From: Yamagishiella unicocca | Taxonomy: Eukaryota; Chlorophyta; Chlorophyceae; Chlamydomonadales; Volvocaceae | NCBI GenBank assembly: GCA_003116995.1 | Contig: BDSL01000010.1 | Span: forward strand, 1,116,001-1,180,000 | Length of the DNA stretch: 64,000 bases | Reading direction: 5' to 3' | Shown: positions 25,839 to 63,695 of the stretch, piece after piece | How positions within the stretch are numbered: the first letter of the stretch is position 1 | How the letters are laid out: the number at the start of each line of letters is the position of its first letter | The notes under the pieces: model-generated | The model's database searches: none | The model's input: only the letters and a program-made list of their open reading frames with translations | What the model was told of the DNA's origin: nothing | Made by a program: the position numbers and the translations under genes

Positions 25839-25860
25839 TTTTGGGGTCATTGGGGTCTTT

Positions 25861-30047: not shown

Positions 30048-33000
30048 TTACTCCAAGCCAAGCCCCAGCGAAAGGGTGGGCGGCAGCTCCGAGGGACCGC
30101 TGGTGCTGGGACTGCCGCCCGCCTGGACTTGGATGCCCTCGCTGCCGCCCGCCTCCTCCAGCAACCCCTGCAAGGGCGGCTGCGGCTGTGGCTGCGCCGG
30201 CGCCGCGCCGCCGCCCCCCGGCCCCCCCGCGGCCGCCGCCACCGCCCCTCCCACCGCCACCGCGTTCTTCGCCGCTTGCTGCTTCAGGTACGTCCCAAAC
30301 CCGCGCTGGCGGATACCCGGCCCGCTGGCTGTCAGCGAGGGGCCGTCCGGGGACATGCCCATCAGGTCGTCATCCTCATCGTCATCGTCGCCCTTATCGT
30401 CCCGGCCGGCCCCCCCGTCCGAGAGCCGCCCCATACCCAGCAGCGGGTCCCCCGCAATCAGTTGGTTGGGGTAGGCGCCCAACGGCGACCCCAACGGCGC
30501 CGCGCCGGGGCCCGTGCCGTCACTGGCAGGGCTGCCGCCCCGCGACCCAAACGGCCCGCTGCCTCCTCCGCCCCCGCCTGCCGCGCCACTACCGCTCCCG
30601 CTGTTGGCTTTGCCTCCTGCACCTCCGCCTCCGAGACCAAGCGGCGCCGCCGCCGCGACGGGACCGCCGCCGCCGCCGGCGGCGGCCACTGGGCCGGCGG
30701 CGGCGGCGGCGGCTGAGGCCTGCAGCATAAAGCCGGCGCCGGAGAAGCCGTGCGGCATGCCGGGCGAGCGGAAGAAGTGGTCTGTGGGCGTGCGCGCGAA
30801 GTCCGGGGTGGTGCCTAGGATCATCATCTCGTCCATCTCGTGCACCTCGTGGTCGTCCATGTCGCCCCCGGGGCCGGCCCCGGAGTCGTGCTTGAAGTCG
30901 GGGGGCATCACCAGCTCGTTCCGGAGGCTGCCGAGGTTGGCCAGCGGATCCACGACTGGGGGCGGGGAGAGAGGGCGCAGGAGGCGGCGGCGAGCGGGTT
31001 CGTGGGGTGAATGTACGGTAAATGTACGGTTTTTGAATGTACGGTTTGAATGTACGGTTGGATATGCGGTTGAATGTACGGTTTGGGAGCGCGGGTGAGT
31101 GGGGAAAGGTGTCAGGACTCGGGGGAGAGGTTAGGTGGGTGGGGGCGGGGGCGGCAGGGGAGGGGGTCGCGCGGCGTGGCTAGGAAGGGGGGGGAGGTGT
31201 GTTTTGGATGGAGGCCGGTACTGGGAGGCCCCCGGATGCGGGCGGTCTTCGGGTGGTGGGACGGCGATGGGACGGGCGGCGAAGGGCGCCATCACGTGGT
31301 GCCGGGGGGGGTGGGGGTGTGGCGAGAAGACCCGGCCATGGGGGATTACAGGAGAGAACCGTTTACTTGACACGTTTAGCTGTTGCATAGGCTTCGGACA
31401 CCTGGACGCGCGCGCATGCCGGGGGGGAGGGAGGGGTTTAGAGGAAACCCATAGGTCGGCACTCGTGGTGGTGGTGGCGGTGGTTTCAGAGACAGGGATT
31501 CAGAGCGCGTGGCGCAAGGGAGTGGTACACCGGTGACGCAACCGCCGTGGGGACGGTGGCGGCCGCACGGCTTGAGGTAGCGACCCACGGGTCGCAAGCA
31601 TCGGCGGCACGAGACCGAGGCTGGCGAGTGGAGCTGCTGGGAGCCGAGGTGGGTGGAGAGGGGGAAGGAGCCAAAACACAGCTGGATGGCGGTTGACGGG
31701 TGGGGACAGGATACGCCATGACTGGGTTGCTAGGTAAAACCGTGTACGACAGAAAAAAACCGTTTAGAACGGCCGTTTGGATATACATGCTGGAAAACTC
31801 GGTGGGGGAACTGAAGTAACAGGTCGCATGTCGACCTTCGGCGGCCTAAGACTAAATCGGAGGCGACGGCTAGGCTAACGGAAAGGAGGATCCCGCGCGG
31901 CGCAAGGAAATGTTTGCGAAGTCGGTTTGTTTTGCGCGCAAGCGGGAGAACTTGGCGAGGTAGCTAGCGACGGGGCTTGCATAAAACGAGGTGGGACAAC
32001 ACGGGTGGGCTTGGTGGGGCGGCTGGATGGCGCCTCTTGGCGCCTGCCCTCCCCAGGCATCGCGCTACGAACAAACAAACAAACAAACGAGCGCTGGCGT
32101 CGAACCAAACCAAAGACGTGCACAGACATACGGAAGCGACACTCTTGGGCGCACAGAGCCTTGCTGCACACAGCCCGGCCAAGGAGGGCGCGCCCATTGC
32201 GCGTAGACCTCTTAACTCCCAAAACTCGCACTGCAACTCGCTGCGCCTCCACCTCCCGCCGCCTCCTACGTTGCCGCCCACCGCTCTCCTCGCCCGCTCC
32301 ACATGCCGATCCACTCTCCGCGCCACTCCACACCACTCCACTCCACACCACGCCGCTCCACCGCCGACGCGCTGTACGTACCGTTCCCTCCGACTAAGCC
32401 CCACGGCGTGTCCAGCAGCTCACCTCCAGCCTCCATAAGCTGGGCGCACATGTCCAGCATGTCGACGGACTTGCCGTACGTGTTGCCGTACGTGTTGCCG
32501 TACGACGTGCCCATCCCCAGGTCGCCGCCGGGGGAGATGCCGAGCATCATGGACGCGGCGCTGCCCATGGAGCCGCCGGGGGGCCACTCGGGCAGCAGCT
32601 GGCCCATGATGCCGCTGGAGCCGAGGGAGGGGATGGGGCCGTGCCAGCCGCTGAAGTTGGGCGTGAGGCCGGTCTTGACCTTCATATGGAGGAAGCTCTG
32701 GGCAGGGCAGGTGGCGGAGAGGGAGGGGGTGGGTGGGTGGGTGGCGTGAAGACCGGTTACACGACTTCGGTGTAGTAGCTGGCGGAGAGGGAGGGGGGGG
32801 GGTTTGAGGAAGACCCGTGGATGCGAGGAAAACCCCGGGGGATGGGGGGGGGGTGTGTGTGGGTTGCGGATGCGGAGGAACCGGGGGAGGAGTCGGCAAC
32901 ACTGGTTTGGGCCGGGATTTCGGCATCCTTTTCATTGTTCTGTTTGTCCTTGTCTTGTTGTTTTTGGGTGACAAACACGAGCGTTATCATTCCGAAACGT

Positions 33001-36000
33001 CACACGTCGTGCTGCTGCTATCTGCTAGGACAGGTGCACAAGAGGCTGGGCCGTTTTAGGATGCACTGCAAACACGTCGATGTAGGCGTTCGCTAGCTGC
33101 TATTCCCGCTGCGAACAACCCAACAACCTGCGGCTGCGCCGCCAGACCCCCCCCGGTTTTTTTCGGGCATCCACGGGTCTCCCTCGACCCCCCCCCCCCC
33201 CGCAAGGCGCCACTGGTGTCAGGCTCACCGAAGGGCTGCCGCCGTTGAGCCCGTGCATAGGGCCCAGCAAGGCTCCCCCGACGCCCGCCGCCGCCATCGC
33301 GTCGTTGACCGACATGGCGCCGTGTATATCCGCCGCCCCCAGACCTCCGTGCATGGACGACTGGATGAGCGGGTCGTCCATGCCTGTGTCGTACAACGTA
33401 CGACGGAGGAGGTGGCAGAGGAGCAGCACGATCCGGGAGCGCGGTCGTTAGCGCGCGGCCGGCCGGCTGGCATGATTTGTGGATCCCTTGGCTTCGGAGG
33501 AGGATTCTTCTCCGAAACCGCTGTGCTCCGGTTGGCCCGGGCAGTTCCGGAGCCGCTGGGTGCGGAGGAAGCGGGCGCTGGCGGCGCAGCCGCGGCCCAA
33601 ACCCAACCCCAAACTCCAATGGTGCCGTACACAGCACGTTGCCCCACCCCTCAGCTTACGCCTGATGCCCGCCTCCATCGTGCCCGCCCCCCGCACCCCC
33701 GGGATTCCTCTTGTAACCCAACGGGGTTTTCCTGACAACCACCCCCACCCCCTCCACGTCCTCATCCCAGTTCAGGCCTGTGAGTGGGTAAGCTGGTGTG
33801 ATGCATCTCGGCGGGCGCAGCGCTACCGACCGCGATTTCCGCAAATGCGCTCCGAAACCCGGCGCACCAGATTTCTTGGCGCTTCCCTTCTGCGCCTTGG
33901 GAGGGCGCAACCGGAGGCTAGGTCCATGCGGCTTGCCTGCCGGACCCAAAGCCGAGGGGGCCGGAGGGGGGCACCAAAACCGGTTACGCGACATGGATAG
34001 GATAGCTGGTGCCGGGGGGGGGTAAAGGATGCAGGGCGGGAGCCAAGTCGGTGGCGCTGCAGCCCCGCCGACCAAGCAGGTGCTCCAGGGATGTTACAGA
34101 TCGGCTTCACAAGCGTACGAGGGGGGCAGGGGCTGCAAGCGGTTGTGTGCGCCGCGGGCTGACATGGGGTTGGACGGGCGACATGTGAAGAGGGTCGCCG
34201 GCGGCTGCCGGCGGCATGCCCATCAGCCCCCACCCGCCAACTCGCTCGGCTTCGCTCGCCCTCTCACCAAACTCCCCGTCTCTCCCCGCCCCCAACACAC
34301 ACACACACACACACACACGCACCCCGCTCGTCCCCGCGCGCACCTTTCGGCTGCTCCGGCGGCGGCCCCAGCCCTGACGCTCCGGCCGCCGCCGCCGCCT
34401 GGTCGTCTGGCCCACCGAGCTGACCCATGGGTCCGCCGCCCATGTCCATCTGCCCCATCTGCCCCGCGCCAGCCGCACTCGCCATCGAGCCCGCACCCGA
34501 GCCGCCCGTCAACCCCATAGAAGACATAGCGCCACTCGCTCCTGAGCCGCCCATGCCCTGGCTACCCGCCGAGGCCATCATGCCGCCTGACGCGCCCCCC
34601 GTGACGACCGCCACCGCCTGCGCCTCGAGGTGGTGGTAGTGGTGGTTGTCGTCGCCGGCGGATGCGGGGAAGTTGCAGCGGGCGGCGGGGCCGCGGATGG
34701 CGCGGGCGGCGGCATCGTAGGCCCGAGCGGCCTCCTCGGCCGTGTCGAAGGTGCCCAGCCACCTGCGGGGCGTGGAAGGGTAGGGGGGGAGGGGAACATG
34801 GAACGAGGCGGGTAGGGGGGGAGGGGCACATGGGACTAGTCGAGTAGGGGGGGAGGGGCACATGGGACTAGTCGAGTAGGGGGGGAGGGGCACATGGGAC
34901 TAGTCGAGTAGGGGGTGGTGTGAAACCGGTGACACGATAAAAGGCAAGATAGTGGGCACATGGAACGAGGCGGGTAGGGGGGGGTAAAGGATTATCCGCG
35001 GTAATCCGGGGGGAAGGCGCAAGCAAAGGACCGGTTACTCGACGTGTGAACGACGACGACTGGTGACTCGATGAGACGGGGGGTCGAGGTCGGGGGCATA
35101 AAGACCGGTCACACGGCATAGGTATAATTGGTGTGGGGGGGGGGCCCGCGCATACAGACCGGTCACACGACGTAGGTAGGTGTACGGGGGGCGGGGGGCG
35201 GGGGGAAGGCAAGTGGCGGTAAGCGGCTCAGGCTGCGAGCGCGGGGGGGAGTGGCCTCCGACCGCAGGGCAGAGGAACAGCACAGGCGACGAGGAGCACT
35301 GCGATGGAGCGGAGCGGCGGCCGCATCAGCCTCTCCGCCAACGCCGCGGCTTCGAAGAAGGGATGAAGAAGGTGCGCCACAGATGCTGATCTGATTTTCA
35401 TCATGCGGAGTGGGGGCTATCTAAGAGAATCCGCGAACCCACGGCCGACACGGCGGAATGCGGGGAGCCCGAAGAAAGAGGCGCCCAGCAGCGCGTGCAT
35501 CCCCCCACTTCTTCGGCCCCCCAAACACACACCCCGTCACGCACCTGCGCGCACCAACGGTCGGATCGCGGATCTCCGCCGCCCATTTGCCCCACGGGCG
35601 CTGCCGTACGCCTCGGTACGTCTTGTTCTTGCCCTTGGACACGACGTCGTCGCCGCCGCCGCCTCCTCGGTGTCCCTTCTTCTGTTGATTTGCAGGCAGG
35701 CGTGCATGGGTCGGGTGTGGGGTTGGCAACGGAACACACCAGGTGTGGAAAGCAGACGGCAGGAAGCAGGTCGTCCAAGGCTTCCCGAACCCTCCAGCCG
35801 TCTACCCCTACGCGGCTCAGCGAGTCTAAATCCCCCTAATGCGCTGCTTCGTGGCCTTCGTAGGCTTCCTGCCTACAGCCTCGCAGACCGACCCACCGAC
35901 CCACCTTCTCCCGGCGCTTCCGAGGGGACGTCGTGTCACCCTCCGACTCGTCGGATGAGTCGTCGTCGTCTTGAGGCATCTGCTGCGTCGGGGCCGGCGC

Positions 36001-39321: not shown

Positions 39322-42300
39322 TCAGCTGCTCCCCGCCGCCGCCGCCGCCTTTCCACTGCCGGCCGCGCCCGTCCCGACGGCCGCCGCCGACGCCACCACT
39401 CCGATGCCCCCTGCCATGGCCGCCGCCGTCAGCGCCGCCGCCTTCTTCGCCAGCGCCGCCGGCATCGTCCCGTAGTACTTGCGCATCTCGTACGCATCCT
39501 CGCCGTCCGCATAGTACTTGCCCTCGATGTCGCAGATCCTGTCGTACACAAGTTCAGGCGCGCGCGTGGAGTTTCGGAGCACGCGGGTTACGGGTGTTTC
39601 GCCCCAGTGTTTTCCCACAGCTTCCCGCGACAACGCAGCGGTCGCAGCGGTCGCTGTGTGTGTGTGGCATGAAAACCGTTGACGCGAAAAAGAAAGGATA
39701 GTGGGCGCATGGTCGGCGGGGGGGGGTGTATAAGAGAATCCGCGGGGGGGGGGGTGCGACCCGCCACGTGCGGCCAGGAAGGGCGTGGGTGCGCCGGGCC
39801 GACGAGGGCTGATGTCGGGCACCGAGGTGTCGAGGAGGACAAGCTGACGACCTAGCAGGAAGTCCAGGGATGGTGGAGGCCCCTTCCTGACGCGGGGGTT
39901 GCCGTACAGAACCGCCGACCCCCCCCCCGGGACCACATGCGCCCACAAATTTGGTGCCCGCCGACCATGCGCCAACCATCCTGTCCTTTTCGCGTCAACG
40001 GTTTCATGCCACCGCCCGGACCAAGCGCAGGCGTACCCTGCCGCAACCCGCCACCCTGATCACACAATCGCGATCACGACCCAGCGTAGGAAAGACGTGG
40101 CGGCCTCTCCCCCGGGCCCCACTCCCTTCCCCCGGACCCACCGACCCCCCCTCCTTACCCCTGCCCCCCGCCCCTGCCCACCGCCCCTGCCCCCCACCCC
40201 TGCCCCCCGCCCCTGCCCCCCGCCCCTGCCCCCCGCCCCTGCCCCCGCCCCTGCCCCCTAGTTTGTCAGCTAGTGTCTGCCCTTCCTTTCCAACGCCATG
40301 TCACCAGGTCTTCTCTCCCCCCCCCCGGGTCCACTCACTTGTATCCAAGCGTTTGCGTGTAGAGGTGCACCGCCACCTTGTTGGTGACGCGCACGTGCAG
40401 CGACACGTACTGCGCTCCGAAGACCTCCGCCATGGCCTTGTCTGTGCGTGTGTGTATGCGTATATGTGGGGGGAGGGGAGGAAAAGACCGGGAAAACGGG
40501 TTCAGCCCGAACCAAACCGCACCGCAACCCCCACCACGTCTTGTTCTCCGGCTAGCCAGAAACATACCGGTAACGTGTATCGGCAGGCACAGGGTAAGAC
40601 TTCATGTCCCACCCGTTGCCGTACAAGCATGTTTTTCCACTCCCCTCTCCCCCCCTCCCCCGACTCACGTGTTGCGCTCATCAGCTTCGTCGCCAGCCCC
40701 AGTTTGCGATGCGTCCGAGCTACGGCCACTGATGTGATGTGGCCGTGCGCTTCCGTCGCGTCCTCCTCCCTGAGAAGGTGATTGGGTCGGGTCGGGTCGG
40801 GTCGGGTCGGGTCGGGTCGGGTCGGGTCGGGTCGGGTCGGGTCGGGTCGGGTCGGGTCGGGTCGGGTCGGGTCGGGTCGGGTCGGGTCGGGTCGGGTCGG
40901 GTGGGTCGGGTCGGGTCGGGTCGGGTCGGGTTGGGTCGGGTCGAGTCGGGTTGGGTTGGGTCGAGTCGGGTTGGGTTGGGGCCCCCTCAGGCCGGGGCCA
41001 ACACTTCGTGTCTAGGGGCGTCGGGCTGGGTCAGGCTTTGCGAGGAAGGCAGCGCCAGTATGTGTGCCAGTGAAGCGGCATCGGAGGAAGGGTGGGCAGG
41101 AGTGGCGGCGTGAGGAGAGGAGGGCAGCGCTGGGATGCTGACGTCCGGCTTCCTGTATCTGCACATCCCCTGCCTGCTCCCACCCCCTTGACCGGTTTTC
41201 ACGGTTTTCACGCCACCCCCCCTTGACCTCACGATTTATTCGATTCCAAGGTCTCTCACGGTTCACTTCTACAGGCCCCGGGCATACTTCGGGCATACAT
41301 GCATCCCGAATGAAAACCCAGAAACCTTGCATCCCCCTAATCGCCCCGGCCCCGGCCTCGGCCTATCGCATATGGATCGGTCCCCGGGCCCCTGCTGCTG
41401 CTATTGCTGCGCGCAGCGACCCACATCTTGGCTAGGACGTAGCCCACGATTTTCCCATCGTAATCCTCTGCCACTTGAAGCAGCTGCGGCCATGATAGGA
41501 TGTGGTACAAGTAGTACTGCGGGGCGGGTGGGGCAGACACGGAGGGTCGCGGGCGTGAGAGTGCGGCGCAGGGGTTGGCGGGACGTGAGGTGGTTGAAGG
41601 CGGGTGTAGGGTGGGAGTGGTTTGGAGCTGGAGGGGAGCGGTTGGAAGTGGTGGCGGCGGGTGCGAGGGGGCCGCGACAAGAAGGGAGGGAGGGGCGTGG
41701 GTGCGAGCAGGAGGTGGTGTCGCGACAGACGACTGCACAAGCAACAGAGGATGTGGCCGGCGAACATTGGACATGACTATGGAGGGCGAACTGGCGTGAC
41801 AATGAAGTGCGTGGGGAAGGGGCGACGAGAAAAACCCGGTGAGGACGCGTCATGGGAGGAGGAGGAAAGGGGGAGGGGAAAGGCACGGAGCGGTGCGCTG
41901 GTTTTTGTGCCTGGGGGTGAAGGCCGCCGGACAGAGTGTGCGGTGCGATTAGTTTTGTAATCAGCTGCTACGCGGTGCGGCTGATGAGCTGCTGCCGCCG
42001 ACAGCATGTTTGTTTGCCAGTTCCTCATTTCCCCGCTGTTGTCGCGCAACCCCGCGCAGAACGCACGCAACCACAGCGCTGATACGCCCTGCTGACAGCT
42101 GAGCGCACGCGGCGATTTGAAAAGGGAGTACGACATCTGGATTCCCTGCTCTTGCTACCTTGCTTCCGAAGTACTCTTCGCCAGCCGTCCCCAGCACGAC
42201 GATGCATCCAACCATATCATGCGTATACCCGGCAACAACTACGAACAGCGCATGTCGTGACGCCCGCCCTGGTTTCGGACGCGCCGCCTAGTCTGGTTGA

Positions 42301-48800: not shown

Positions 48801-51112
48801 GGCCCACCAACGGATCGAACCTTTCCCGCCTACCCTCGTCGAGCCTTCCTCGCCGCCCTCACAATACACCTCTTCGACCCCCCACACACACATTAGTTTT
48901 GACTTCCAGTGCCGCAATACGAGCGGCACTTTCATACCCCCCTTCCCCGTTGCGTCGCGCGGGGTCCTCGCTTCCATTCGTCTCGCCGCAGCCGATTTAG
49001 CTTAGCCGCCGAAGGCCGACATACGACCTTCGTCTTTCGTACCCTCAACCCAGTTCTCCAGCATGCATCTCAAAACGTCTGTTCTACACGGTTTTTTCTC
49101 GCATCCAAGGGTCTTCCTCGAACACCCCCCCACACACATCAGTGTTGATTTGCAGTGCCGCAATACGAATTTCCTCTCATCCCCCCCCTTCCCCCCCCCC
49201 ACACACGATCCACGTTTTCGGACATCCACGGGTTTCCCTCGAACCCCACACACGATCCGCTCCCCCCGCCTCAGGTCTCTTCGACAGCGTCCTCCTCAGC
49301 CGCCACCTCAACGTGACGTGCCCCCTCCGCTGCGGAGCCCTCTTCGCCGCCGTTACCACAACCACCGCAACCACCAACGGCGCCAACGGCCCAGCGGCGG
49401 GCGCTGGCAGGGACAGCGGCGCCGCCTCCGCTGATGTCTCCGCTGCGGCGCTGGCGGCGGGTCTCACAAACGGCCTGGCGTCCCTCCCTGGAGTGCAGGT
49501 ACGGGGTTGAGGCGGGGAGGGGGAGGTGGGGGAGGAGCCCCGGCGGAGCCCCTGTATGTGGGTACGGCATCACCCTTCCCAGCATTACCCGGTCGTCGTC
49601 TCACCCGCTCAATATGTTACTATACGCATCCAGTTTCCTTTCGCTCGTGTCTCGCCCGCTGGCGGTGGCTCCGTGAAGGGCGGAAAGGGCGTTGCGTTTC
49701 GCTGACAATAATTCCAACTAATAAACAAGCAAACAAACAGAATCCTGCTGGGGCCGTGAGTTCTCGGTTGCTCACCCGCATCCTCACCATTCTCACCAAC
49801 CCCCACCCGCAGCTTTCCTACCCTTGTCGTGCACCCGGGTCTCTATGCCACCCTCGCCGTCCCTCCCAATCACTCACCGTCACGCCCGCCCCCCCACCCT
49901 ACCCACCCCAGTGCTCCAGCATGCGCCCACAAAATTGGTGTCCGACGACCATGCGCCAACTATCCTGTCCCGTTGCGTAAAACTGTTTTCATACACCCCC
50001 GCCTGCCAGGCGCTGGATGACGCCTTCGATGTCCGGGCGGTGCTGGCGGGCTGCCGCAGCGGCGCCCTGCCGCCCATCGCCAGCTACTGCACCAACGGCT
50101 GGCTGGAGTGGGTGGAATTCGAGCGGCCGCCGCTGCCACCGCCGGGAGAAACAGCAGCAGCAGCAGCAGCATCAGAGGCCCTGCGGCTGCAACCACTGCA
50201 ACAACAGCAACAACAGCAGTCAAAACAACAAAAACAACAAGAACTGAAACAGCAGAATGCGTATGCAGGCGGCGGTTTCGGAGCGGATTCAAGGGGGGCG
50301 CCATCGCCGCGATCTCCAGGGTTGCGGCGGCAGCAACACCCGCTGCCAGGGCCAGAGGACGGCGGCATCAAAGGCGCCTCCCTGGAGCGCCACGTGCCTT
50401 GCCTGGAGCTGCCCGACCTGGGCGTGTCCTGTCGGGTGCTGCCCGTGCTGTGGTTTCGGTTCTCGACGCGGGAGGAGCGGCGGGCGCTGAGGCGGCGTGG
50501 CGGCGGCGGCGGGGTGGCGGCGCCGACCACCGCCGCCGCCGCCGCGGCGGCGGCGGCGGCCGCCGAGGCTGAGGCGGAGCTGGCTGAGGCGGACCAGCAG
50601 CTGGCGGCGGCTCAGGCGCTGCTGGTGGAGTTGCAGCAGGTCGCGGTGGAGATGGCCGGAGAGGGGCAGCAACAGCAGCTACAGCAACAGCAGCAGCAAC
50701 AGCAGCAACAGCAGGTAGAGCAGCAACAGCAGCAACAGCAGGTAGAGGAGGAGCAGCAGCAGCAGAGGGGCATGGTTCATGGCCTGGCGGCGGCGATGGC
50801 GGCTGCCCTGGCGGCGGTGGAGGTGGCCCGGGGGCGAGGCAACGAGATGCCGGTGGTGGAGGCGCGGGGAGACCAGGTGCAGATCAGGGTGGGCAGCCAG
50901 CAGTTGTTCGCCGCAACAATGGGCGCAGCAGCGGCGCCGGCGGTGGCGGCGGCGGTGGCCGCAGCGGCTGGCGCCGCCGTTGCCGGCGGCACCAGCGCCG
51001 GCGCCGGCACCAGTTCGTCGGCGGCATGCCGTGACGTTCCCGCGCACCGGCTTTCCGACATGAGCTTCGAAGAGGATGGCGAGGAGGAAGTGGAGGACGA
51101 CGAGGACTGCAG

Positions 51113-51152
<40 letters not shown>

Positions 51153-52855
51153 TCCGGAACTGGCTTTGGAGCCGGCTCCGGAGCCGGCGCGTCCGGCGCC
51201 TCTGCGGCACTGCTTGGTTCTGCTGGGCCGATGGACCAAAGCGACGACGACGACGACGACGAGGAGGAGGAGGAGGAGGAGCAGCAGGAGCAGGAGGAGG
51301 ACGAGGAGAGCAGTGGAGAGTTGGAGGGCAGCGAGGAGGATGGCCCGGAGGAGGAGGAGGAGGAGGCCAACAATGACGAGCACGGGTACGGCTCGGACGA
51401 CGACGAGCTGACGGAGTCCGACGAGGACTTTGACGACGTGGGCGGAGTCATCGACGTGGGCGGCATGCTGGGGCCGTGGCCTCTGGTAGCGTTGGGGCTG
51501 CCGGGCGGCGGCGCCGGTACCTCCGCCGGCTTGACGGCGGCGGCGGCGATGGCGGCGGCGGCGGCGGTGGCGTGCAACGCAGCGCTGGCGCAGGTGGAGG
51601 CGGAGACCGGAGGGGGGGTCCACGGATGCGGCGGCGGCGCCGCCGCCGCCGCCGCGCCGTTGGCGGCCCAGGCCGTCATTATTCCCACGATGCCCATCTT
51701 TCCCATCTCGCCAAACTTGACGGCGCTGGCGCCGGGTGGGTTGGCTGCGCGGGTAGGGTTGTTGTGTGGAGGAGGAGGAGGAGGAGGAGGAGGTGGCGTG
51801 GAGGAGGAGGAGGGCTTGCGGGGTGTCAGCGTGTGTATGTGTGCAGTAATGTGAGTTATGTTTTAGGGGGTCGGAAAGTGTAAGTGGTGGTGTGGAGTCC
51901 GCAGCTAGAGTCGACGACGGGTCTAGGAGCCAGATGCTGCGTGGTGTGGCGCTTGGCTCTTCTGAAACGACAGACCGTCTATTGCCGTACACGCCGTCCT
52001 CCACCGCCGTTTTGAGCCCGTCGGAGCCTTGACCTACCGTGCACCCGCCGTACATTCGCAGGTGTCGGCCACGTGTACGGCTGGGCTGCCCCAGCGGCGG
52101 CCGACCACATGGTGCAGATCCGGCTCAAGCAGGTGCGGCCCCCGAGGGTGCGGGCTTTAGGGTTTAGGGGTTTTAGGGGTTTTAGGGTTTCGTTTCACAA
52201 AGCCCTGCGCCCTGCAATGAGGGGGGCATAGGGTATGGCAGGGAAGCGCGCGGAGGGGTCGGCCAGATGGCCATCAGGGCCTGAAGCTGGAACGGACAGG
52301 GGCCTCTGTGTCATCGTGTCGGGTACCCTAGAACGGACAGGGGCCTCTGTGTCATCGTGTCGGGTACCCTAGAACGGGGTGAGTCGAGTGCCGGCACATG
52401 GCGGAACTACCGTGTGGCGCTGAATCACTGGTAGGAGGAGGGAGGACGTGGCGGTGGGAGGACATGCCAGTTGGAGGACGCGCCAGTAGGAGGACGTGCC
52501 GGTATTTCAGCAGCACTGGGGTGAGGACCTGATGACGGCGCCGCAGCAACACCAGCCTTAACCCCAGGCTTTTGTGAGCTTACGAGGTGCACACCGTGCG
52601 CACACAGCGGCCCTGGCCCTCCTCCTCCCCTCACACCAACCTCACTGCGCCGCCCTTGGCCCCCCGCCCTGACGCCACCCACCCCCCGCCCCGACCCCGC
52701 CGCCTCCGACCCCGGGTCCGCCTCCCTCCCTGGACTCGCAGCCCTGGTGTGCGAACACCCTACTGGCCAAGCTCATCTCCTGCGAGGACACCCGGCCCGC
52801 CTTCAACCGCAGCCGGGGGGGCTGCAACATAGACGCGGGCATCGTGACAGTGCAG
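42860..52855 (+). CDS. F-box domain protein, large, with acidic and Gln-rich insert
   Basis: Thirteen + strand exons join without a phase error: 42860-42949, 43385-43492, 44515-44820, 45464-45550, 46078-46134, 46377-46430, 46810-46915, 47340-47530, 47826-47967, 49275-49498, 50010-51735, 52062-52132, 52742-52855 (1092 residues so far). Residues about 8-60 form an F-box (FESLDDLCLQHVATHTDSLK, DLLCLGSACRRLHDVVDVAD, VAWQRHILTDFG), which normally binds SKP1 in an SCF ubiquitin ligase. The rest is unfamiliar: a poly-Pro stretch (about 85-125), a conserved-looking block (IWHNQRSVPYTIQQAAPDRQ), and a 575-residue exon-11 segment with Gln runs (about 672-710) and a very acidic stretch (about 806-936). 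C-terminal folded segments (VYGWAAPAAADHMVQIRLKQ, CNIDAGIVTVQ) suggest a substrate-binding domain. No stop codon is reached; the 3' part may be 55450-56058. Later exons are supported by phase and splice sites only. Confidence 0.72.
44045..44185 (+). repeat. Intron module A, full copy, F-box intron 2
   Basis: GATTCGAGGGAAATCCGTGG, AAAAAAACCGTTTAAAACAG, TTTTGAGATGCATGCTGGAG and an AAGGTCGTAATATGACCTTT hairpin. Almost identical to 55295-55400 and 60965-61085. Confidence 0.75.
45131..45192 (+). repeat. Intron module A, 3'-truncated copy, F-box intron 3
   Basis: GTTTCGAGGAAGACCCGTGG, AAAAACCGTTTAGAACAGAC, then GTTTTGAGATGCTGG. The start of another copy lies at 44826-44850, just after the donor of the same intron. 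Confidence 0.7.
45353..45390 (+). repeat. AAACCCC heptamer tract (telomere-like)
   Basis: About five units of CCAAACC-type heptamer, equivalent to GGGGTTT on the other strand. Short TTTAGGG pairs also occur at 45655-45672. Confidence 0.8.
45682..45745 (+). repeat. 11-bp minisatellite, six units
   Basis: Unit CTGCTCGTCCT repeated in F-box intron 4. Confidence 0.9.
48456..48704 (+). repeat. 22-bp minisatellite, about 11 units, F-box intron 9
   Basis: Unit includes GGTTCGGGGAACCGTGTTCC; every unit contains the near-palindrome GGTTCGGGGAACC. The open frames across it (22-residue repeats) are unit-length artefacts. Decayed half-units precede it from 48355. Confidence 0.92.
49005..49125 (-). repeat. 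Intron module A, full copy, reverse, F-box intron 9
   Basis: GCCGCCGAAGGCCGACATAC, AGCATGCATCTCAAAACGTC, then GCATCCAAGGGTCTTCCTCG. Antisense to the gene and in the acceptor half of the intron; a second partial antisense copy lies at 49215-49260. Confidence 0.72.
49926..50000 (-). repeat. Intron module C, reverse, at the acceptor of F-box intron 10
   Basis: AAATTGGTGTCCGACGACCA, TGCGCCAACTATCCTGTCCC, GTTGCGTAAAACTGTTTTCA. It ends within about 10-15 nt of the acceptor at 50009. Matches 59983-60068 in opposite orientation. Confidence 0.75.
52150..52190 (+). repeat. Interstitial telomere-like tract, F-box intron 12
   Basis: Mixed TTTAGGG, TTTTAGGGG and TTTTAGGG units in a row. Confidence 0.75.
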
Positions 52856-52985
52856 GTGGGGGGGCTGCAACATAGACGCGGGCATCGTGACAGTGCAGGT
52901 GGGGGGGCTGCAACATAGACGCGGGCATCGTGACAGTGCAGGTGGGGGGGCTGCAACATAGACGCGGGCATCGTGACGGTGCAGG
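52817..52985 (+). repeat. 43-bp tandem repeat built from an exon end plus its splice donor
   Basis: Four units each end ATCGTGACAGTGCAG|GTGGGG. The first is the coding end of exon 13 and the other three lie in the following intron, so the candidate 5' splice site is present four times. Copies differ by one base in the last unit (GTGACGGTGCAG). Confidence 0.85.
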
Positions 52986-52999
52986 TGGGGGGCGGGTTG

Positions 53000-53975: not shown

Positions 53976-54108
53976 TTACCTGCTGCCGCCACCACAACAG
54001 CGCCGCGGCTGGCGCTGGCTGGCCGGCGGCCACGGCGCCCCCCGCTGTTGTGCGTTTAGGGTGGCAGCTGCGTGTCTTGCATCGCTGTGGAGCTGTTTGT
54101 ATAGTTAA

Positions 54109-55294
54109 GATTAAGAGCTGCAGGGACGCTCCCGCACATCGCGGGCCACAGTCATTGTTGTGTGGGGTTGTTGTGGGGGGCGGGCGGCCGGCGCGGTGAG
54201 TTAACAACTCAGCCGGTGCGGTGAGTGAACAATTTCACAAAGGCGCCACGGGACGGGCTGAAGTGATGGGGCAGGTTTCGGAGCATCCACACCAGCGACG
54301 GGAAGTATGGAGTAGGACTGGAACCAGACTGGAACGGCATGAAGCTGAGAAATGGTATTGGTTGGTTGGTTGGTTGGTTGGTTGGTTGGTTGGTTGATGG
54401 GTACTGCATTAGTAGGCAGGGGTACGGTTGTCGTGGTGCGGGGTTGCGCGATGGTACGATGACGTAAGTGCATGCGCAGGCAGGAGGATGCTGCGAGGCT
54501 CGAGAGTCGTGGCCTAGGGTTTCTGGACTGCGGGTCTTGAGGGCGGGCTGGGAGCAGCGCGAATGATGTGCACAGAAAGGCAGAGCTGCCCGAGACGGCC
54601 CGAGGGGGAAGGGGAGAGGAGAGGGGACGGACGGAGCAGACGGAGCGGATTGATCCCTGCTGTGTGGAGTCGCGCCCTGCAGCTGTTGGAACCGCTTAAG
54701 CGCACGGCGTAGTGTCCCATGTAAAAGACGGTCGGCGTGTACAGGGGTACGACATGTACGACTTGTACGGAGGTACATGGAAGGGGGATTTGGGATCCGG
54801 ACGTGTGCCGCCGTCCCCAGCGGAGGACGCGGGGGTCGGAGGTCGCGGCTCGGAGGTCGCGTGTGGTCATGGGCTCGTTTTCGAACTCAGAAAGAATCCG
54901 AAAGGGATCCAAAAGGGATCTGAAAAGAATACAAAGACCTTGACACCTGGCTCGTGCGCAGCTGCCTCATCCACCCTGTAACAAGGTTCGCTCCAGACAG
55001 CTCTGCGTGGGTACCCACGGTTTGCTGTGGGCCCGGAGAGGGAGGCGGCGGCGGGGGAGGGGCGGCGGCGGCGGTGTGCCAGGCGGCGACGGAGTAGGTG
55101 GTGGTGGCGGGGGCGGAAGGTCACGGCAGTGAAAGGGCAGCCGAGGCAGCGGGCTGCTGGGAATGAGAAGCCGGCCCGAATCACTTGACGACCGCAGCCG
55201 TGGTTGGGCCCTGGCGGCACGAGGCCGTTTGGTCGCTGCATAGCAGCAGCTGTCGGATGGGGTCTGTTGTGGGGTGGGGTGGGGTGGGGTTTGT
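54109..55294. other. No gene recognised; contains (GGTT)n
   Basis: GGTT tetranucleotide run at about 54359-54396. The remainder has no domain on either strand. If the F-box gene extends to 56058, this is intron. Confidence 0.35.
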
Positions 55295-55400
55295 GGGGTT
55301 CGAGGGAAACCCGTGGATGTCCGGAAAAAAACGTTTAAAAACAGAAGTTTTGAGATGCATGCTGGAGAACTGGGTTGGGGATACGAAAGCCGACCCCGGG
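55295..55400 (+). repeat. Intron module A copy
   Basis: GTTCGAGGGAAACCCGTGGA, AAACGTTTAAAAACAGAAGT, TTTTGAGATGCATGCTGGAG, AACTGGGTTGGGGATACGAA. Nearest relative in the window is 44045-44185. Confidence 0.75.
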
Positions 55401-55449
55401 TGGGGTGGGGTTTGTTGTGTGGTGTGCGCGCCTGCAAGTCAATCCCCAG

Positions 55450-56058: not shown

Positions 56059-58039
56059 GCCGGCGGCATGCTGTGGACACGGGGCACTGGGTCATGGGGA
56101 GCCCTCATCGACCGCGCCGGGGCAAGGGGCAGCGGCGCTTAGGTAAGAAATGCCAAAGCCGTGTCCACGTTGAGTGTTTACCGCCGAACCGCGGAAAATT
56201 TCCGCTGGAAATGAACGGTCCGGGCGGCGGCGATTTCCGCACGGAGGAAAGCGAAGGGAGGGCGCAGGAGCGCGCGGCGCTAAACTGGCCGGTATTACAC
56301 GCTGGGAGGGCCGGAGGTGTGTGTCGGTGTGCTGCAGGCTGAAAGGTCGGGGAGGTCACGATGTGTCTCAAAGTGCTCCGCGATAAGGGGGTGTAAGAAA
56401 ACCGTTTTTTGGGGGGGGCTCTTCCCCGAACGGGGAGACAGACGAGGTGCTGTGCTGTGGGATGCCCAGCGGGATGCCGAAGAGGAGGACAAGTAAGCGG
56501 CTCCGAAACCAATACGCTTCCTCCAGCGCCGCCCCACTGAGGCTTACAGCTGGCCTTCACTGCCGTCGAGCTGCTGCGCGGAGCAAGGCAGAGCCGCCTG
56601 CTGCCCGCTGCGGAAAGAACGCAAGATACATGTATGTGCGCAGCTCGCGGCCGCGGCGGCGGTCGGTGGCGAAAGGGACCCAGCGCACCTGCCGCCCACC
56701 ATACTTGACAAGTCCACGGACACGTTACCTACCAAACATCAACGAAGCAGGTCCAGCCATTATGAAAGGTGACCCCACGCGCAACGGCCGCGTACCAGTT
56801 ACTACTGCCACGCCAGCATCTAGGTGCACGGTGCATTAGGTGTACCCAATCGGTCATTCGTGCACGCACGCACATACAGTGTGTGAAAGCGCTCGAACGG
56901 CCGGTCGTGCGTTCACCTGCAGAAGCTTGTTGCAACACAACCTTCGGCCTGGTGCTCGCTCATTGGCGTGTCGAGCACGTGCTGTGTCACGCGACGGACG
57001 CTTCCGACACCGACATTGGGAATCATGCACCCCTCAACAATCACTCGCCCGCACAACACAAAGACCGTGCAGGGCCGGACGGAGTGCGAAAACCTCGCCG
57101 CCGCCGCGGTGCTCCCCCCTCCCCACAAGTCCGCCTGCAGTGGCGGCTTTGCGCCCATGACGGGCGTCCTCCGCCACATACGGCGTCGCGGAGTTGAGGT
57201 ACTGTCCGGCTGTAACAGCAGCAGCAACAGCAGTGTAGCCCAGCAGTTGAAAATGGCATTTATGCACAAATATATCGTGTTGTTGTCATGTTGTTGCGCT
57301 CAACATACGGCACAGCACGCCAGCAGCGCATGGAGACCACTGGCTTGTAATTGACGCTGTCGCGACTTCAAATTTTGTATCCCGCCCTTTTCCGGGTTTG
57401 CTCGGGATCCACCCAAACAGGATCCAAGCTAATAGAATCCACCCTAATAGGATCGATCCACCCACAAATAGGATTCACCCCAAAGAGGATCCACCCAAAG
57501 AGGATCCCGTGGATTCTTCGTCAGGCAGGGACACACACGCATGCACTTCTCATCCCCTTAGCGCACCCGAATACGGCGACCTGATATCAGTACGGCAGCC
57601 CGTGACACCCGTACCCTAATCCATGACATCAGTACAGTAAGGCAGGCAGGCAATCCGTGACACCAGTACGGTAGCCCGTGCACCGTGACACCAGTATGAT
57701 AGCCCGTGCACCGTGATACGAATACGGCAGACCGTGACGCCAGGACGGACGGTAGCCCGTGCACCGTAATATCAGTACGACGTCCCGTGATGCCAGTACG
57801 GTATCACGGGTTACCTTGACTACTCTAGCCCGTAACACCAGTGGCTGCAGTCCATCGCCGCCACAGCCGCGGCGGCGTCAAAGTCAGGAGCCCCTCCCGA
57901 CATCATGCAACAGTGTCGAATCGGAACACGCATTCAATTCAAGCGCTTCCTCGCGTGTACCCCCTCAGTGCCGTCCTCCTTCCTAGCCTTACGCAGCTCC
58001 CTCCTCCTCCGTCCCTCCACCGCAATGCCCTCCTTCCTA
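56059..58039. other. No gene recognised; degenerate short repeats
   Basis: A + strand TGTAA at 56392 could end an upstream transcript. About six GGATCCACCC-type repeats lie at 57408-57510. At 57585-57840 a degenerate minisatellite of roughly 30-bp units mixes CGTGACACCAGTACGG and AGCCCGTGCACCGTGA. A duplicated segment with TCCTTCCTAGCCTTAC lies at 57978-58050. Confidence 0.4.
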
Positions 58040-58042
58040 GCC

Positions 58043-58047
58043 TTACA
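58043..58047 (-). terminator. Candidate TGTAA poly(A) signal of the VWA gene
   Basis: TGTAA on the minus strand about 250 nt after the VWA-gene stop (58296), a typical spacing. Confidence 0.55.
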
Positions 58048-58295
58048 CAGCTCTACATGCAGCCACCGCCACCACCCCTTTGCTCCCGAGCTCCATACGG
58101 CCCCCGACTCTCTCCCCACGCACTCAAGACACCAGCGCAGCCGCGCTTTCATGGCAACATCAACATCGCCCCCCAGCGCCTGTATAAAAACACGCCGTGC
58201 AGCGCCTCACACACCCGCATACCCCCACCCCACCGCGACGACGACCTCTCCCACCCCACCCCCCCCTAGGAAATCCACGGGCCTAACTTGCTCCC

Positions 58296-61200
58296 CTAGG
58301 AAATCGTGCAGCCGCCCAGGCTGTCGACACACGACCCCGCATCGCACTCCCCACACTCCCCACACTCGCCGCACTCGCCGCAGCACTCCCCGCCGCCCGC
58401 GTCGCCCATGCCTCCCATGCCGCCCCCGACGTCGCCCATTCCTGGACCGAGGCCGCGGCCGGGGGGCGGGGGGGGGGGAAACGGAGCGGGGTGAGAAGTG
58501 GTGGTGGGTAACAATAAAAGAAGGGGGGGGGGGAGCACGTACGGATGAGTGCACAGGCGAGGGGGTGGTTCGACGTAGCACGGCCGCTGATGCTGGTTGG
58601 AATTGGCTGCTGTAACCGGGCAGAGGCAGCTCGCGCCCGGCACCGTCCCCGCCTAGTCGCCTGCTCATGCCCCCTAGCTCCCCCCCGCCACCCTCCTCGC
58701 AATCCGGCCGTCCACCCTCTTCCCTCTTCCCCTCCCTCCCTCCTCCCCACCCTCCTCGCACAACCCCTCCCTCCTCTGTGTACCCAACGCTTTCCTAGTC
58801 GGGTTCCCTACCCAGTGCCGACCCACGGGTCTCCTCTCAAACCTTCCCTCCCCAACCAGGCCCTCCACCCCGCCCCCCGAACGCCCTGCCCCGCCCCGCC
58901 ATCTCCAAACACGTGTACCAAAACGCTTCCTGTGGGTCGGTACTGAAACGTTTCACTACCGACCCACGGGTCTCCTCTCGCACACCCCCCCCGCCCGACC
59001 CACCAACGTTGGCGGCCGTGGACCCCAGGTCGCCGAACGCAAAGGCCGCTCCGACCCCCAGCGCGGCCAGCACCACCAGCCCCGCCGCTCCGCCGATGGC
59101 GTACTTGGCGTAGTTGGTTTTCCGCTTTCCGTGGGTCGCCTCTGACTGTTGGAGCTGCTGGTAGTCGCGGTGGGTGGTTTCGAAGCCAACCGTACGGGTG
59201 TGGGCGCAAGGTACGCCTGTCGGGCAGGGAGCGGGTCGGGGGGCAAGTTAGCGCGTACGCGGATGAGGGCACGGTGGGGGGCGGTTGGTGGTGGTCGTTG
59301 GTACGAGCAACGTGTCGTGCGCAGCGCGCGCGCCCTCAGGCCCCCTTCGGAGCCCCTTTCCCATCCGGCCCTCCTCCCTCACCACCACCTTCATCGCCAC
59401 CATCACCACCACCACCACCTTCATCACCACCACCACCACCACCTTCATCACCACCTTCATCGCCCTTGGTTTGTCGGATTCACGGACTATCCAATCCTTA
59501 ACCCCCTCACCGGTGGCGATGGAGAGGTCGACGATCTGGTTTACCATCTGGGGGGGGTTGCCGGCCAGCCACGCCTGGGAGCAGTAGGGATGTTACAACG
59601 GAGCGGGGTGCGGAGTGTAGGGCGTAAGGAGGGAGGCGGAGGAGCGACGCGACAACCTCCATCCACGTCCAGCCAGCCTCATACAAAAATGGGTTCCCGC
59701 CAACCGACAACGGACAACCGTCAACAACGGTGAAGTTATCAGGGCAGTCCCCCCACTCCTTAGGACCCCCGCCCCCCTCCACGCCGCCGCCCCTTCCCCG
59801 CTGTCCCCCGCTCCCTCCTCCTCCGCTCCCCCCCACCTGCGCTGTGAGGAGATCCAGGCGGTTCTTGATGAAGATCTTGTCCAGCGGCAGATCGCTGTCC
59901 TTGCATGGAAGCACGGGGTTGGAGCTCCAGGCTGGGGGTGGGGTCGGGGTGGGGTTCGAGGGGGGGGGGCGTGGAGGGGGTGGCATGAAAACCGTTTACG
60001 CAACGGGACAGGGATAGTTGGCGCATGGTCGTCGGATACCAATTTTGTGGGCGCATACTAGAGCACTGCGGGGGGGGGGTCGGGGGGGGGGGGTTGGAGA
60101 GGGGGATTGAGAGGACAGTCCAGCGGAAGGGGTTGGGCGGCGCAACCTGCTAGTAGGGCTGCCATCTGGGCGCGCTGTCAAGTCCAGGAGGGGGAGGCGG
60201 TTCGGTCGGCACAGCGGGCGGGAAGGCGGGTCGCTTCCGCAGTGAGATGTCGGTTGGGGTGTCTTCTTGGTCCGTGTAGGAGGCCTGGACGGCAGGGTGC
60301 CGCAGCGCGGGTAAAACCCATCCCCCCGCCATACACACACCCAATCCCCCCCCCCGCCACCAGTCGCGTTACCGGGTCTATTATTATAACCCCCCGCCAC
60401 CACCGCCGTCTGTCCAAACTGACACCACCCCAAGCGCAGGGGCCGCGAGGGCCCTGCCCGCACAGTACGGTAGATTGCGTATCAGTACGACAGAACTTCG
60501 CCCTCCCCCCGTGGATGCGCGGATTGCATTTAAACCCTCCCAACCCTGAACAAAGTGCGCCAGCATGCGCCCATGACTATGGTTCCGAAGAAAATATGCG
60601 CCATATAACCTATCTATGACGTGTAAACGGTCATTATGGCACCCCGAACCCGTACACGGGTCTTCCTTGCAACCCCCCCGAACCCCAACCCCGACGCCAC
60701 CTGTTCCGTTTGGCAGCGTGCCGTTGAGTGAGATGCCGCTCGCCGGCCACTGGCCGCTGTACTTGCCGGACACCACCAGCGGCATGCCGCAAAAGAGGTC
60801 CGGCAGCGGGTAGGGGTACAGCTCGCAGCCGGCAACTCCAGGGAGGGTGAGCGTCAGGTCGGACAGCACGGGCCGCTGGGCGGCGGTGAGCATGTGCTGC
60901 ATTTGGGTCTGCGCGGGTATAGCAGGAGTGGGTGTGGGTGTGTGGGGGGGTGGGGGCGTTTAGCGGGGGTTTCGAGGAAGACCCCTGGATGCGAGAAAAA
61001 CCGTTTAGGACAGACGTTTTGAGATGCATGCTGGAGAGCTTGGGTGCGCAAAGGACGGAGGTCGTAGGTCGACCTTCGGCGGCTAAGCGAAACCGGCGGG
61101 CGGCTAGACCCCCCGCGTGACGCAAGGAAACGTTTCGCGAAACCGGTGTTTTTTGGCGCTAGCTGGAGAACTGGGGGGGGCGGCGAACGATGGGAGATCG

Positions 61201-63695
61201 GATAGCGCGGCATTGAGCGGGGGGGGGAGAGGGGTTGGTACACAGAAGGGAATGTTTTATTCGGAGTACGGAACGCGGGAAGGCTCCGGTGTTTTCAGGT
61301 AAGGCCGTACTCCTGCAGGAAGCAATCAGCGGCAGTCTCCCCTCCACGCAGACTGTCGGTCGTGGATTCACAAATTATCTGCTTCCCCCCCCCCCACGTG
61401 ACCCCCCCAACTACATTACCCCAGTCGAGTTACCGCTTCTTTACTTGTAACCCCACGTGACCCCCCCACGCGGCGAATGAGGCGCCAACACTGGAAATCT
61501 CTTCCCCCTTGCCGTCCTGTCTCGTCCTCTCCACACACACACACACCCGGGGGGTTGATGTTTTTTACACCCGTGGGGGCCTTTCCACGCCGTGCCCTTC
61601 CCACGGGTTCCGGATTTACTTTATAGCCCCCCGAAGCCCACGCGCCAGCTGGTTCCTACCCTGCACTCCCTAGGTCGAGTAACTCCGGGTAACCCCCCGC
61701 TTACCCCCCCCCCCGCAGCCCGCTCGCACCTGGATCGCGTGCGGCCGGAACGCCGCGTCGAAGGCTCCCCTGCCGTATGACGCCAGCTGCTTGAGGAAGT
61801 AGTGGTTGCAGTAGATGCCGATGCCGAAGGCGCAGATGCGGGGTATGCCGGGCGGCGGCGGTCCGCCCGCCTGCCCTCCCTGGACCTGCTGCTTCTGCTG
61901 CAGCAGGGCGCCCACCTGCTGCTCCACGTAACGACAAATGTCCTTCTCGTTCTGTATACGACACCGGGTCGGGTACAGGAGGTGGGCAGCGGCGTTAGAG
62001 GGTTGGTTGCGGTGGGTTGCAGTTGGTTGCAGTGGGTTGGGTGTGGTTTCGGAGGCCTTGAAAATGCCAAACAGCAATGCCCCGCCTCACGCCGCCCCAC
62101 AGCCCGCGGCCACGATCCCGCCAAAGAGCCGTCTGGCCCCCCTTGCTGCCCTCCCACCCTCCACACACACACATCCACCTACCCATCCTCGGTTCGCCTA
62201 CCTATGTGACATGTAAGCCACCCACCCACCCACCCACCTGCACACAGCCGTCGGTGACCAGGAATATGAAGGGCAGGGAGGGGGTGGCCTGGGCGGCCTG
62301 GCTCGACAGCACCCCCATGGCCGCCTCCAAGGGCCCTCGGATGTCGGTGAGGCCGCGCGCCTCGATGGAACCCATCACCCAAGCCTGAAGCGGGGGGGGG
62401 GGCGGGTGAGGAAATCCCGTGGAAGAGGGTGGGAGCGGGTGGGTGGGTGGGGTGGATGGGCTTGGAGGAGCTACGGCGTTTTGGGTTATTGGCGGCGACC
62501 GACAAATGCCATATGGCATGTGTCCGGGTGGCGACAGCAACAGCAGCATACCCCTTACCCCCCCGTCCCCTTCCCCGGTTTCCTATGCCGTGTAACCGGG
62601 TCTCCTCGCCACGCCCCAAAACCCCAGCCTCAGCGCACCTCGCACGCCTGCACGTTCTCCGACGTGGCCTGCATCAGCGACCCCCCTGGAGTGAACCACA
62701 GCTGCTCGTGGTCGAAGGCAACCACCGTGAAGCTGTCCAGGGGGGTCAGGGAGCGCAGCCCGAAGGCCAGGGCGGCCCTGAGGGGGGGGGAGGGAGGGAG
62801 GGGGAGAGGGAGGGAGGGACGAGCAGTGTGGGCAGGAGGGAGGGGCGAGCAGCGTGGGCGGGAGGGAGGGCTGGGCAGTGTGGGCAGGAGGGAGGGACGA
62901 GCAGGGTAGCCCGGGTCGGGGGACGGGAGGAGCCGGCAGCTCAGAGGGGAGTGCCGAACCAAACAGCGGATGGAGGGGAAGCGAGCAACGCAGCAAGCTC
63001 CAAACTCTCTGCAGCGAGGAACACCCCCCCACCCCGCCCACATACACAGCCCCATTACAAACCTTGTCGAGGTTCCGACCTCCTGTCGGCTGCCCTCTGT
63101 TTTTCTCCTTCCGAGGCCCCTCCGGTCTCTCCACCCCACCCTCCCTCTCCTTTCCCCCCAAATAGCCAGTACCAGCAAGCCCCCTCCCTCTCCCGGGTGC
63201 CTCTCCTTCAGGCTTCTTCCTCATCCCCCCCCCCTCCATATGTTGGCCCACAGGTATTTGTCTCAAGGACCCCCCCAGATGCCCCCCCCCAAGGTGCCCA
63301 CGTCGAGTAACCGGTTCGTTTTTGCAACCCCCCCCAGGTGCCCCCCCCCCAGGTGCCCCCCCCCCAGGTGCCCCCCCCCCAGGTGCCCTCCCCCCCCAGG
63401 TGCCCCCCGCCCAGGTGCCCTCCCCCCCCAGGTGCCCCCCGCCCAGCTGCCCTCCCCCTCACTTCGCGAACTGCATGGGCTCCCCCGTCATGCTGCCCGA
63501 GCGGTCCAGCATGAAGATGATGGAGCGGGGGAAGGAGGGGGTGAACTCGGGGGCGGGGGGGGCCACGGACAGCACGAAGGCGCCGCGTGGGTCGGGGTCG
63601 GCGGGGTGGGGCTCACGCGGGGGGGTTACGTTGAGCGCAAGGAACATGTCGGAGCCCCACACCAGGTAGCGCACGTCCAGGTCGGTGTTGGGGAC
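58296..63695 (-). CDS. VWA-domain protein (VIT/VWA type) with C-terminal membrane-like segment and Gly-Cys tail; 5' end outside window
   Basis: Nine minus-strand exons in phase: 63695-63463, 62777-62639, 62384-62238, 61951-61730, 60908-60701, 59931-59837, 59574-59511, 59216-59004 and 58441-58296 (TAG), 488 residues visible. A von Willebrand A domain begins SIIFMLDRSGSMTGEP; the MIDAS metal motif DxSxS is D64-S66-S68 of the visible part. It continues FTVVAFDHEQLWF, GLTDIRGPLEAAMG, IFLVTDGCV and ICAFGIGIYCNHYFLKQLAS. A beta-domain follows (LPLVVSGKYSGQWP-like), then LPLDKIFIKNRLDLLTAQAW and VPCAHTRTVGFETT. The end has a hydrophobic Gly/Ala/Val segment (YAIGGAAGLVVLAALGVGAA) and a short CCGECGECGEC tail. 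Inter-alpha-trypsin-inhibitor-type VIT/VWA proteins have this order, with the VIT domain before VWA, so it is expected beyond 63695. Likely a metal-dependent adhesion or scaffold protein; location uncertain. Confidence 0.85.
59390..59465 (+). repeat. (CCACCTTCAT/CACCAC)n in a VWA-gene intron
   Basis: CACCACC triplets punctuated by CTTCATC, several units. Confidence 0.85.
59983..60068 (+). repeat. Intron module C, full copy, VWA gene
   Basis: GGCATGAAAACCGTTTACGC, ACGGGACAGGGATAGTTGGC, GCATGGTCGTCGGATACCAA, TTTTGTGGGCGCATAC. It is antisense to the gene and adjacent to the acceptor of the 59931 exon. Inverse of 49926-50000. Confidence 0.75.
60555..60690 (-). repeat. Intron modules C and A, reverse, near the donor of the same VWA-gene intron
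   Basis: AGCATGCGCCCATGACTATG, GACGTGTAAACGGTCATTAT, then CCCGTACACGGGTCTTCCTT. In gene orientation it is sense and next to the donor (60700), so it is inverted relative to 59983-60068. Confidence 0.65.
60965..61150 (+). repeat. Intron module A, longest copy, VWA gene
   Basis: GTTTCGAGGAAGACCCCTGG, AAAAACCGTTTAGGACAGAC, GATGCATGCTGGAGAGCTTG, then a GTCGTAGGTCGACCTTCGGC hairpin and a CGTTTCGCGAAACCGG tail. Antisense to the gene, near the acceptor side of its intron. Confidence 0.75.
62785..62935 (+). repeat. About 26-bp repeat, VWA-gene intron
   Basis: Units with GAGGGACGAGCAGTGTGGGC, about five copies, preceded by a (GGGA)n run. Confidence 0.8.
63330..63460 (+). repeat. AGGTGCCCCCCCCCC-type repeat at the donor side of a VWA-gene intron
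   Basis: About eight units of 14-16 bp. In gene orientation this is a G-run-rich tract directly following the 5' splice site (63462), rich enough to form a G-quadruplex. Confidence 0.85.

Follow-up and report, generated by a model that had tools for sequence, protein, structure and literature searches.

What are the short repeated modules that lie in the introns of several genes in this part of the Yamagishiella unicocca genome, and why do they point inward from both ends of the introns that hold them? The window considered here, that is, the whole stretch of DNA analysed, is 64,000 nt long (contig C10, positions 1,116,001-1,180,000, in an assembly of 133.4 Mb and 1415 contigs). The sequence-only reading had described the modules as dispersed mobile elements placed at splice sites in opposite orientations, and had considered as their origin either introners with terminal inverted repeats or an arrangement that folds introns. 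We think it probable (roughly 0.8) that they are several short families of non-LTR retroposons, SINE-like or LINE-derived, that are target-primed at G runs and take their orientation from the G run. Pfam profiles confirm the AP2, N-acetyltransferase and VWA genes of the window, the F-box gene keeping the name given to it by the earlier reading; a NAA10 query made of four joined exons matches Volvox reticuliferus at 91% over 72%, Gonium pectorale at 89% over 77% and Pleodorina starrii at 80% over 97%.

Copies were searched for by BLAST with ten seeds in 264 kb, namely the window and four random 50-kb blocks of the same genome. This returned 75 module copies, 36 in the window and 20, 15, 3 and 1 in the blocks on contigs C8, C1, C9 and C2, two pairs among them overlapping slightly and two neighbouring same-family pairs perhaps being pieces of one copy; the ten seeds gave 0 hits in the same sequence reversed without complementing. 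Because all seeds were cut from the window, only the 39 copies elsewhere are independent, and copies below the BLAST threshold, such as one seen by eye near 32803, are uncounted. Extrapolation from 39 copies per 200 kb suggests about 26,000 copies genome-wide, a rough figure considering that the blocks differ twentyfold and that they are the first 4 of 40 random draws among contigs for which earlier hits gave a bound on length, so that small contigs are missing. Exons and introns come from a home-made gene finder with a strand-symmetric background, whose models are predictions without transcript support. The trained splice models span only a few bases at each intron end and are themselves G-rich at the donor and C-rich at the acceptor, and intron polarity was measured after trimming 8 and 25 bp from the introns.

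Among the copies between two same-strand exons (exon score at least 8, gap below 3 kb) in the window and the four blocks, 48/59 point inward. The left halves of these gaps hold 29 plus and 1 minus copies and the right halves 19 minus and 10 plus (Fisher 2.3e-7); outside the window 25/29 are inward (left plus, left minus, right minus and right plus copies being 16/0/9/4, p=7e-5), so the pattern that had been proposed for the window extends beyond it. The sole left-minus copy, at 33154-33187, lies in reality at the right end of the AP2 intron 32698-33228 and was miscounted as an exception because the model missed an exon at about 33229-33390. With signs flipped intron by intron, p is at most 5e-5 for exon thresholds of 5 and 8 and 2.5e-4 for 12, with 49/56 copies inward at threshold 5 (gaps to 1.5 kb) and 48/59 and 37/47 at thresholds 8 and 12 (gaps to 3 kb). 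At threshold 15 the rule weakens (31/47 inward, Fisher 0.03, sign flip 0.011); there, more exons are dropped and introns merge. Neighbouring copies less than 600 bp apart are same-oriented in 16 cases, convergent in 8 and divergent in 0 when no exon lies between them, and same-oriented in 6 and divergent in 2 when one does. It is the place within the intron that orientation tracks, in genes of both strands.

Six introns had been offered as examples. Copies point inward from both sides in four of them, whereas 59217-59510 and 62385-62638 hold no copy above threshold, only diverged stretches recognised by eye. The AP2-gene intron 32698-33228 has a family B2 copy on its left side (32742-32782, plus) and at its right end the minus copy at 33154-33187, a family A copy truncated to 34 bp. 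The intron 39539-40338 of NAA10, a gene on the minus strand, has a C2 copy on the left (39668-39716, plus) and a C copy on the right (39937-40016, minus). The VWA-gene intron 59932-60700 holds two C copies, 59976-60068 (plus) on the left and 60554-60645 (minus, 69% identity) on the right; in the next, 60909-61729, a family A copy of 77% identity takes the left side (60971-61109, plus), and a family F copy at 61411-61452 (minus) is flanked by the 14-bp repeat CACGTGACCCCCCC at 61395-61408 and 61454-61467. The F-box gene carries a truncated A copy on the donor side of an intron, after a G run (45135-45198, plus), an F copy (46752-46790, minus) separated by 19 bp from the next confident exon, an A copy in the right part of intron 47968-49274 (48967-49122, minus) and a C copy (49909-50000, minus) that stops 9 bp short of the acceptor in the intron ending at 50009. 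An AP2-domain intron contains a same-orientation cluster of a B copy (34914-34962, plus) and a B2 copy (35095-35133, plus). The two exceptions that had been pointed out are real copies: the family D copy 35419-35450 (plus), preceded by a G run, lies in a right half and breaks the orientation rule, and the A copy 55299-55393 (plus), whose gene context is uncertain, has an 18-bp target-site duplication (TSD) in a G-rich repeat (55277-55294 and 55398-55415). A family E copy at 58905-58988 (minus) contains an internal near-perfect hairpin, GTGGGTCGGTAGTGAAAC / GTTTCAGTACCGACCCAC, and the predicted exon overlapping it is probably false.

Several other features of the window may be recorded here. 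Its composition changes sharply, from a GC of 0.57-0.61 with 1 copy over positions 1-30000 to 0.64-0.67 with 35 copies over 30000-64000. Short contig-internal arrays of GGGTTTTA-like units, the telomere repeat type of Chlamydomonas and Volvox, lie at 25808-25862 and 52152-52187, and a long near-perfect array of about 45 units of 28 bp, CAGCAGCAGCAGGGCGAGGCAGCATGGA, occupies 23658-24960. Four near-identical 43-bp repeats at 52815-52992 each carry, as judged by eye, an apparent exon end and splice donor, the donor therefore being repeated in tandem.

Where the copies sit bears directly on the introner proposal. Their density per 10 kb is 7.8 in introns, 0.2 in exons (1/75 copies) and 1.1 in other DNA, the last including unpredicted introns. 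Expressed per 100 G/C runs, to which insertion itself adds, the densities are 4.4 in introns, 0.1 in exons and 1.2 in other DNA for runs of at least 4, and 75.6, 7.1 and 55.6 for runs of at least 8 (59 intron and 15 other copies). Copies are thus commoner in introns than in other DNA, as had been expected of mobile modules enriched there, but the excess shrinks to 76 versus 56 at long runs, so that the preference for introns is in large part associated with long G/C runs. Elements that create introns, carrying splice sites at or near their ends, would yield intron-concentrated, inward-pointing copies as their terminal inverted repeats, and introners are present in Micromonas, a green alga, according to PMC9860276. 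However, a single copy fills at most 0.34 of its intron (median 0.12, 29 introns), no copy of 37 lies with both its edges 10 bp or less from a splice site, different families occur in one intron, and the one full-length A copy that was tested shows no terminal inverted repeat, 442/500 shuffles scoring as high. Measured over 37 copies, the median gap between the edge of a copy and whichever predicted splice site is closer is 55 bp, for which the phrase "at splice sites" was too strong. Where TSDs are seen, individual copies have their own, and therefore the inward arrangement does not represent two ends of one element. We regard an introner origin as highly improbable.

The aligned copies of families A and C have instead one constant end and another cut at variable lengths, from about 20 bp up to the longest A copy of 1838 bp on contig C133. 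At least 14 other matches, among 40 scored of 69 candidates, share the far end base of the 1838-bp copy, and three of these 14 (on C39, C13 and C5) have the A constant end at the expected distance. Family C is about 120 bp long, judging by three copies that end alike, and A at 1838 bp is too long for a SINE. TSDs of at least 9 bp (9-18 bp) flank 22/53 A and C copies, the families to which these statistics refer (B, D, E and F lie outside them), compared with a mean of 3.9% and a maximum of 11.5% for mismatched flanks in 300 pairings; 31/53 copies are without a TSD of this length. The test omitted L001, L009 and L012, which are the same places as in the window, as well as copies with a query start above 8 or too near a locus end, and some of the remaining loci had been chosen by a search for high similarity to A or C. 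Within the window, the A copy 44049-44205 (plus) has a 9-bp TSD, GTGGTGGGG, at 44039-44047 and 44205-44213; it lies between F-box-gene exons by reading and was scored as a different-strand gap as the exon at 43385 scored low. The A copy 47604-47642 (plus) has a 14-bp TSD at 47589-47602 and 47640-47653, at a site adjoining a short tandem repeat, and the truncated A copy 49215-49243 (minus) has one of 14 bp, GGATCGTGTGTGGG, at 49198-49211 and 49245-49258. Most of the TSDs finish with a G run where they adjoin the constant end, examples being TATTTTCGGGGG (L006), GGAAAGGGGGG (L014) and GCCGAGGGGGGG (L003).

Taken together, a constant end, one-sided truncation, TSDs and the lack of a terminal inverted repeat characterise non-LTR retroposons. 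Rolling-circle elements are not known to leave a TSD. DNA transposons of the MITE kind, or rolling-circle elements, would fit the shortness and very high number of the copies and the lack of a reverse-transcriptase frame, against which stand the long and variable TSDs, the one-sidedness of the truncation and the absence of a terminal inverted repeat from the A copy tested; we give this alternative almost no weight. From the truncation pattern we infer which end is 3': the constant end, read backwards, would be the 3' end of the element RNA, and most copies would lack some of their 5' part. At L048:312-508 the 5' end of the long A copy is overlapped by a perfect inverted repeat of 90 bp (loop of 17 bp), such as 5' inversion during reverse transcription might leave behind.

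By their constant ends the families form two groups, A/A2/E/E2 and B/B2/C/C2, to which D and F are unlinked, and AAAACCGTTTA is common to the constant ends of A, A2 and C. A short relative on contig C62 retains the 5' region of A and its final 36 bp, the middle between them being reduced in length and only partly similar. The longest frame of the full-length A copy encodes 323 aa, whose first 200 residues are rich in P and Q repeats; the copy has no reverse-transcriptase frame, and Pfam recognised no family in those 200 residues nor in a 99-aa frame. The partner enzyme would be encoded elsewhere, perhaps by a LINE sharing a 3' end that matches CCACGGGTYTCCYTCRAACC or AAACGGTTTTTATACCACC. RVT_1 is abundant in the genome by profile search (150 of 610 reverse-transcriptase candidates scored). 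The element tail was absent from the 3' regions of two LINE-like loci (L045 and L046), with only chance-like matches of 18-23 bp elsewhere, a third locus (L047) being presumably LTR-like, and neither the DNA upstream of the long A copy nor that around its C62 relative contained a partner enzyme. Nothing that would account for a pol III promoter was found inside the modules: a search for tRNAs was negative in 8 loci, and Rfam returned neither a match reaching the gathering score in 6 loci nor any match inside modules. A segment of the window at 12348-12611 matches the 3' region of LINE-like L046, which has a 1461-aa frame, at 94-97% in both orientations.

What, then, sets the orientation? The 18-mer TTCGAGGRARACCCGTGG, taken from the constant end of family A, was counted at 4034 genomic sites, of which 2030 are forward and 2004 reverse; its backward control has no match in the genome. 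GGGG stands 0-3 nt upstream of 1233/2004 reverse sites, about 38% having none within 3 nt, and CCCC is beside 0/2030 forward and 2/2004 reverse sites (2/4034). The listed reverse sites appear once each, and the forward GGGG figure of 2834, inflated by overlapping starts, is left out. The same rule is seen for all families in the sample: GGGG lies within 14 bp upstream in 37/59 copies with a near-complete constant end, against a strand-matched background of 0.14, and CCCC in 0/59. Over a wider stretch, whose sample counts, but not the 18-mer count, are helped by some seeds starting with G, CCCC is found at 2/75 copies. Composition of the 150-bp flanks on each side fits the orientation in 67/75 copies, and intron position in 48/59. 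Each copy thus seems to be oriented by the G run into which it inserts.

Alternatively, copies might insert in random orientation and selection then remove the wrong ones, for example those with antisense cryptic splice sites. Such purging would fit the near-absence of copies from exons (1/75) and an orientation that follows intron position on both gene strands. Yet a rule as strict as GGGG by 1233/2004 reverse A ends and CCCC by 2/4034 would most simply be set at insertion, and GGGG is found also at 7/9 copies that break the orientation rule, counted over a stretch reaching 8 nt into the copy, and at 8/12 copies not placed between same-strand exons. We consider later selection an unlikely main cause, and infer target choice in its place, together with a target-primed mechanism and an enzyme common to all families.

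For target choice to produce inward copies, the introns themselves should be polar, and they are. Along the transcript, GC skew of introns in which no copy was detected (n=97) runs from +0.22 to -0.24, and their first and second halves hold 183/54 runs of G4 and 69/166 of C4. A G-run target rule can therefore fix orientation with respect to the intron. The eight longest of these introns (700-1500 bp) have no clear polarity. Copy-free introns of the copy-poor blocks on C2 and C9 have a polarity of +0.065/-0.038 (31/45, p=0.006), weaker than the +0.199/-0.166 (47/52) of the window and copy-rich blocks, and insertion may thus itself account for part of the polarity. Copies may prefer introns that are already polar, the polarity may have grown through many earlier insertions, or both.

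This polarity also bears on the proposal that modules are kept because they fold introns and bring the splice sites together. In introns with modules, the first and last 30% are predicted to form 23.6 pairs with each other, compared to 12.8 after whole shuffling, the number being higher in 16/19, so the end pairing that had been suggested is indeed predicted. However, introns without copies behave alike (21.7 versus 12.2, higher in 53/82), native folds are per base no more stable than those of shuffles, and shuffling within halves retains the pairing (24.5 in the 19 introns with copies and 20.1 in the 82 without), and therefore composition suffices. Retention of the modules for the sake of folding is, in our judgement, very unlikely.

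Returning to retroposons primed at G runs, we envisage the following sequence of events. Insertion would begin at a G/C run, where a nick leaves a G-run primer able to pair with the 3' end of the element (CCC...); reverse transcription would start from this primer, and repair would yield the 9-18 bp duplication carrying the G run, the strand of which fixes the orientation of the copy. As introns start G-rich and end C-rich on either gene strand, copies would point inward from both ends. Every insertion would duplicate the G run, and earlier insertions would probably supply new sites of the same orientation. A further possibility, offered tentatively and one we would rather doubt than assert, is that of a self-reinforcing loop in which retroposons read the slight G-to-C polarity conferred on every intron by its splice signals, insert accordingly, duplicate the G run, lengthen the introns and so deepen the polarity. 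If this were true, volvocine algae would owe their long, G-start/C-end introns, and the tendency of these to fold end to end, in good part to decayed copies.

The orientation of transposons is often put down to selection after insertion, and here a target rule combined with intron polarity explains it, offering a testable source for the unusually long introns of volvocine algae. In the open-licence literature, searched by title and start of abstract, we found nothing describing G-run-seeking retroposons or G-to-C introns in these algae. Alu and L1 elements in animal introns insert by target priming, are truncated at the 5' end and are oriented non-randomly relative to genes; the modules resemble them in the 5' truncation, the non-random orientation and, as inferred here, the target priming, and differ from them in that orientation tracks position in the intron, not gene strand. 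Target-specific LINEs insert into simple repeats, as do the telomere-targeting SART/TRAS and Zepp, and share with the modules a repetitive-motif target and a fixed orientation, the target of the modules being, in contrast, G runs scattered in introns. The constant end common to each of the groups A/A2/E/E2 and B/B2/C/C2 is reminiscent of SINEs and LINEs read by one enzyme. In Chlamydomonas reinhardtii, SINEX-1 to -6_CR are described in PMC3747384 as having RandI/Dualen or L1-1_CR tails. The modules are like SINEX in being short elements of a volvocalean alga, but the SINEX families described there terminate in (ATT)n, (CTTT)n or (A)n, and the 3' end of the modules, which abuts a G/C run directly, carries neither poly-A nor a simple repeat of the kind found in named algal SINEs. 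Craig et al. 2021 (PMC8226300) regard whatever drives intron length in volvocine algae as probably of ancient origin, and state that what benefit long introns bring is not known. Introners, finally, carry or recruit splice sites at their boundaries, as stated in PMC9860276, and the modules are similar to them in high copy number and concentration in introns; unlike introners, they cover only part of the intron, are found at variable distance from splice sites and, in the copy tested, are without a terminal inverted repeat, a warning that inward repeats in introns can mimic introners.
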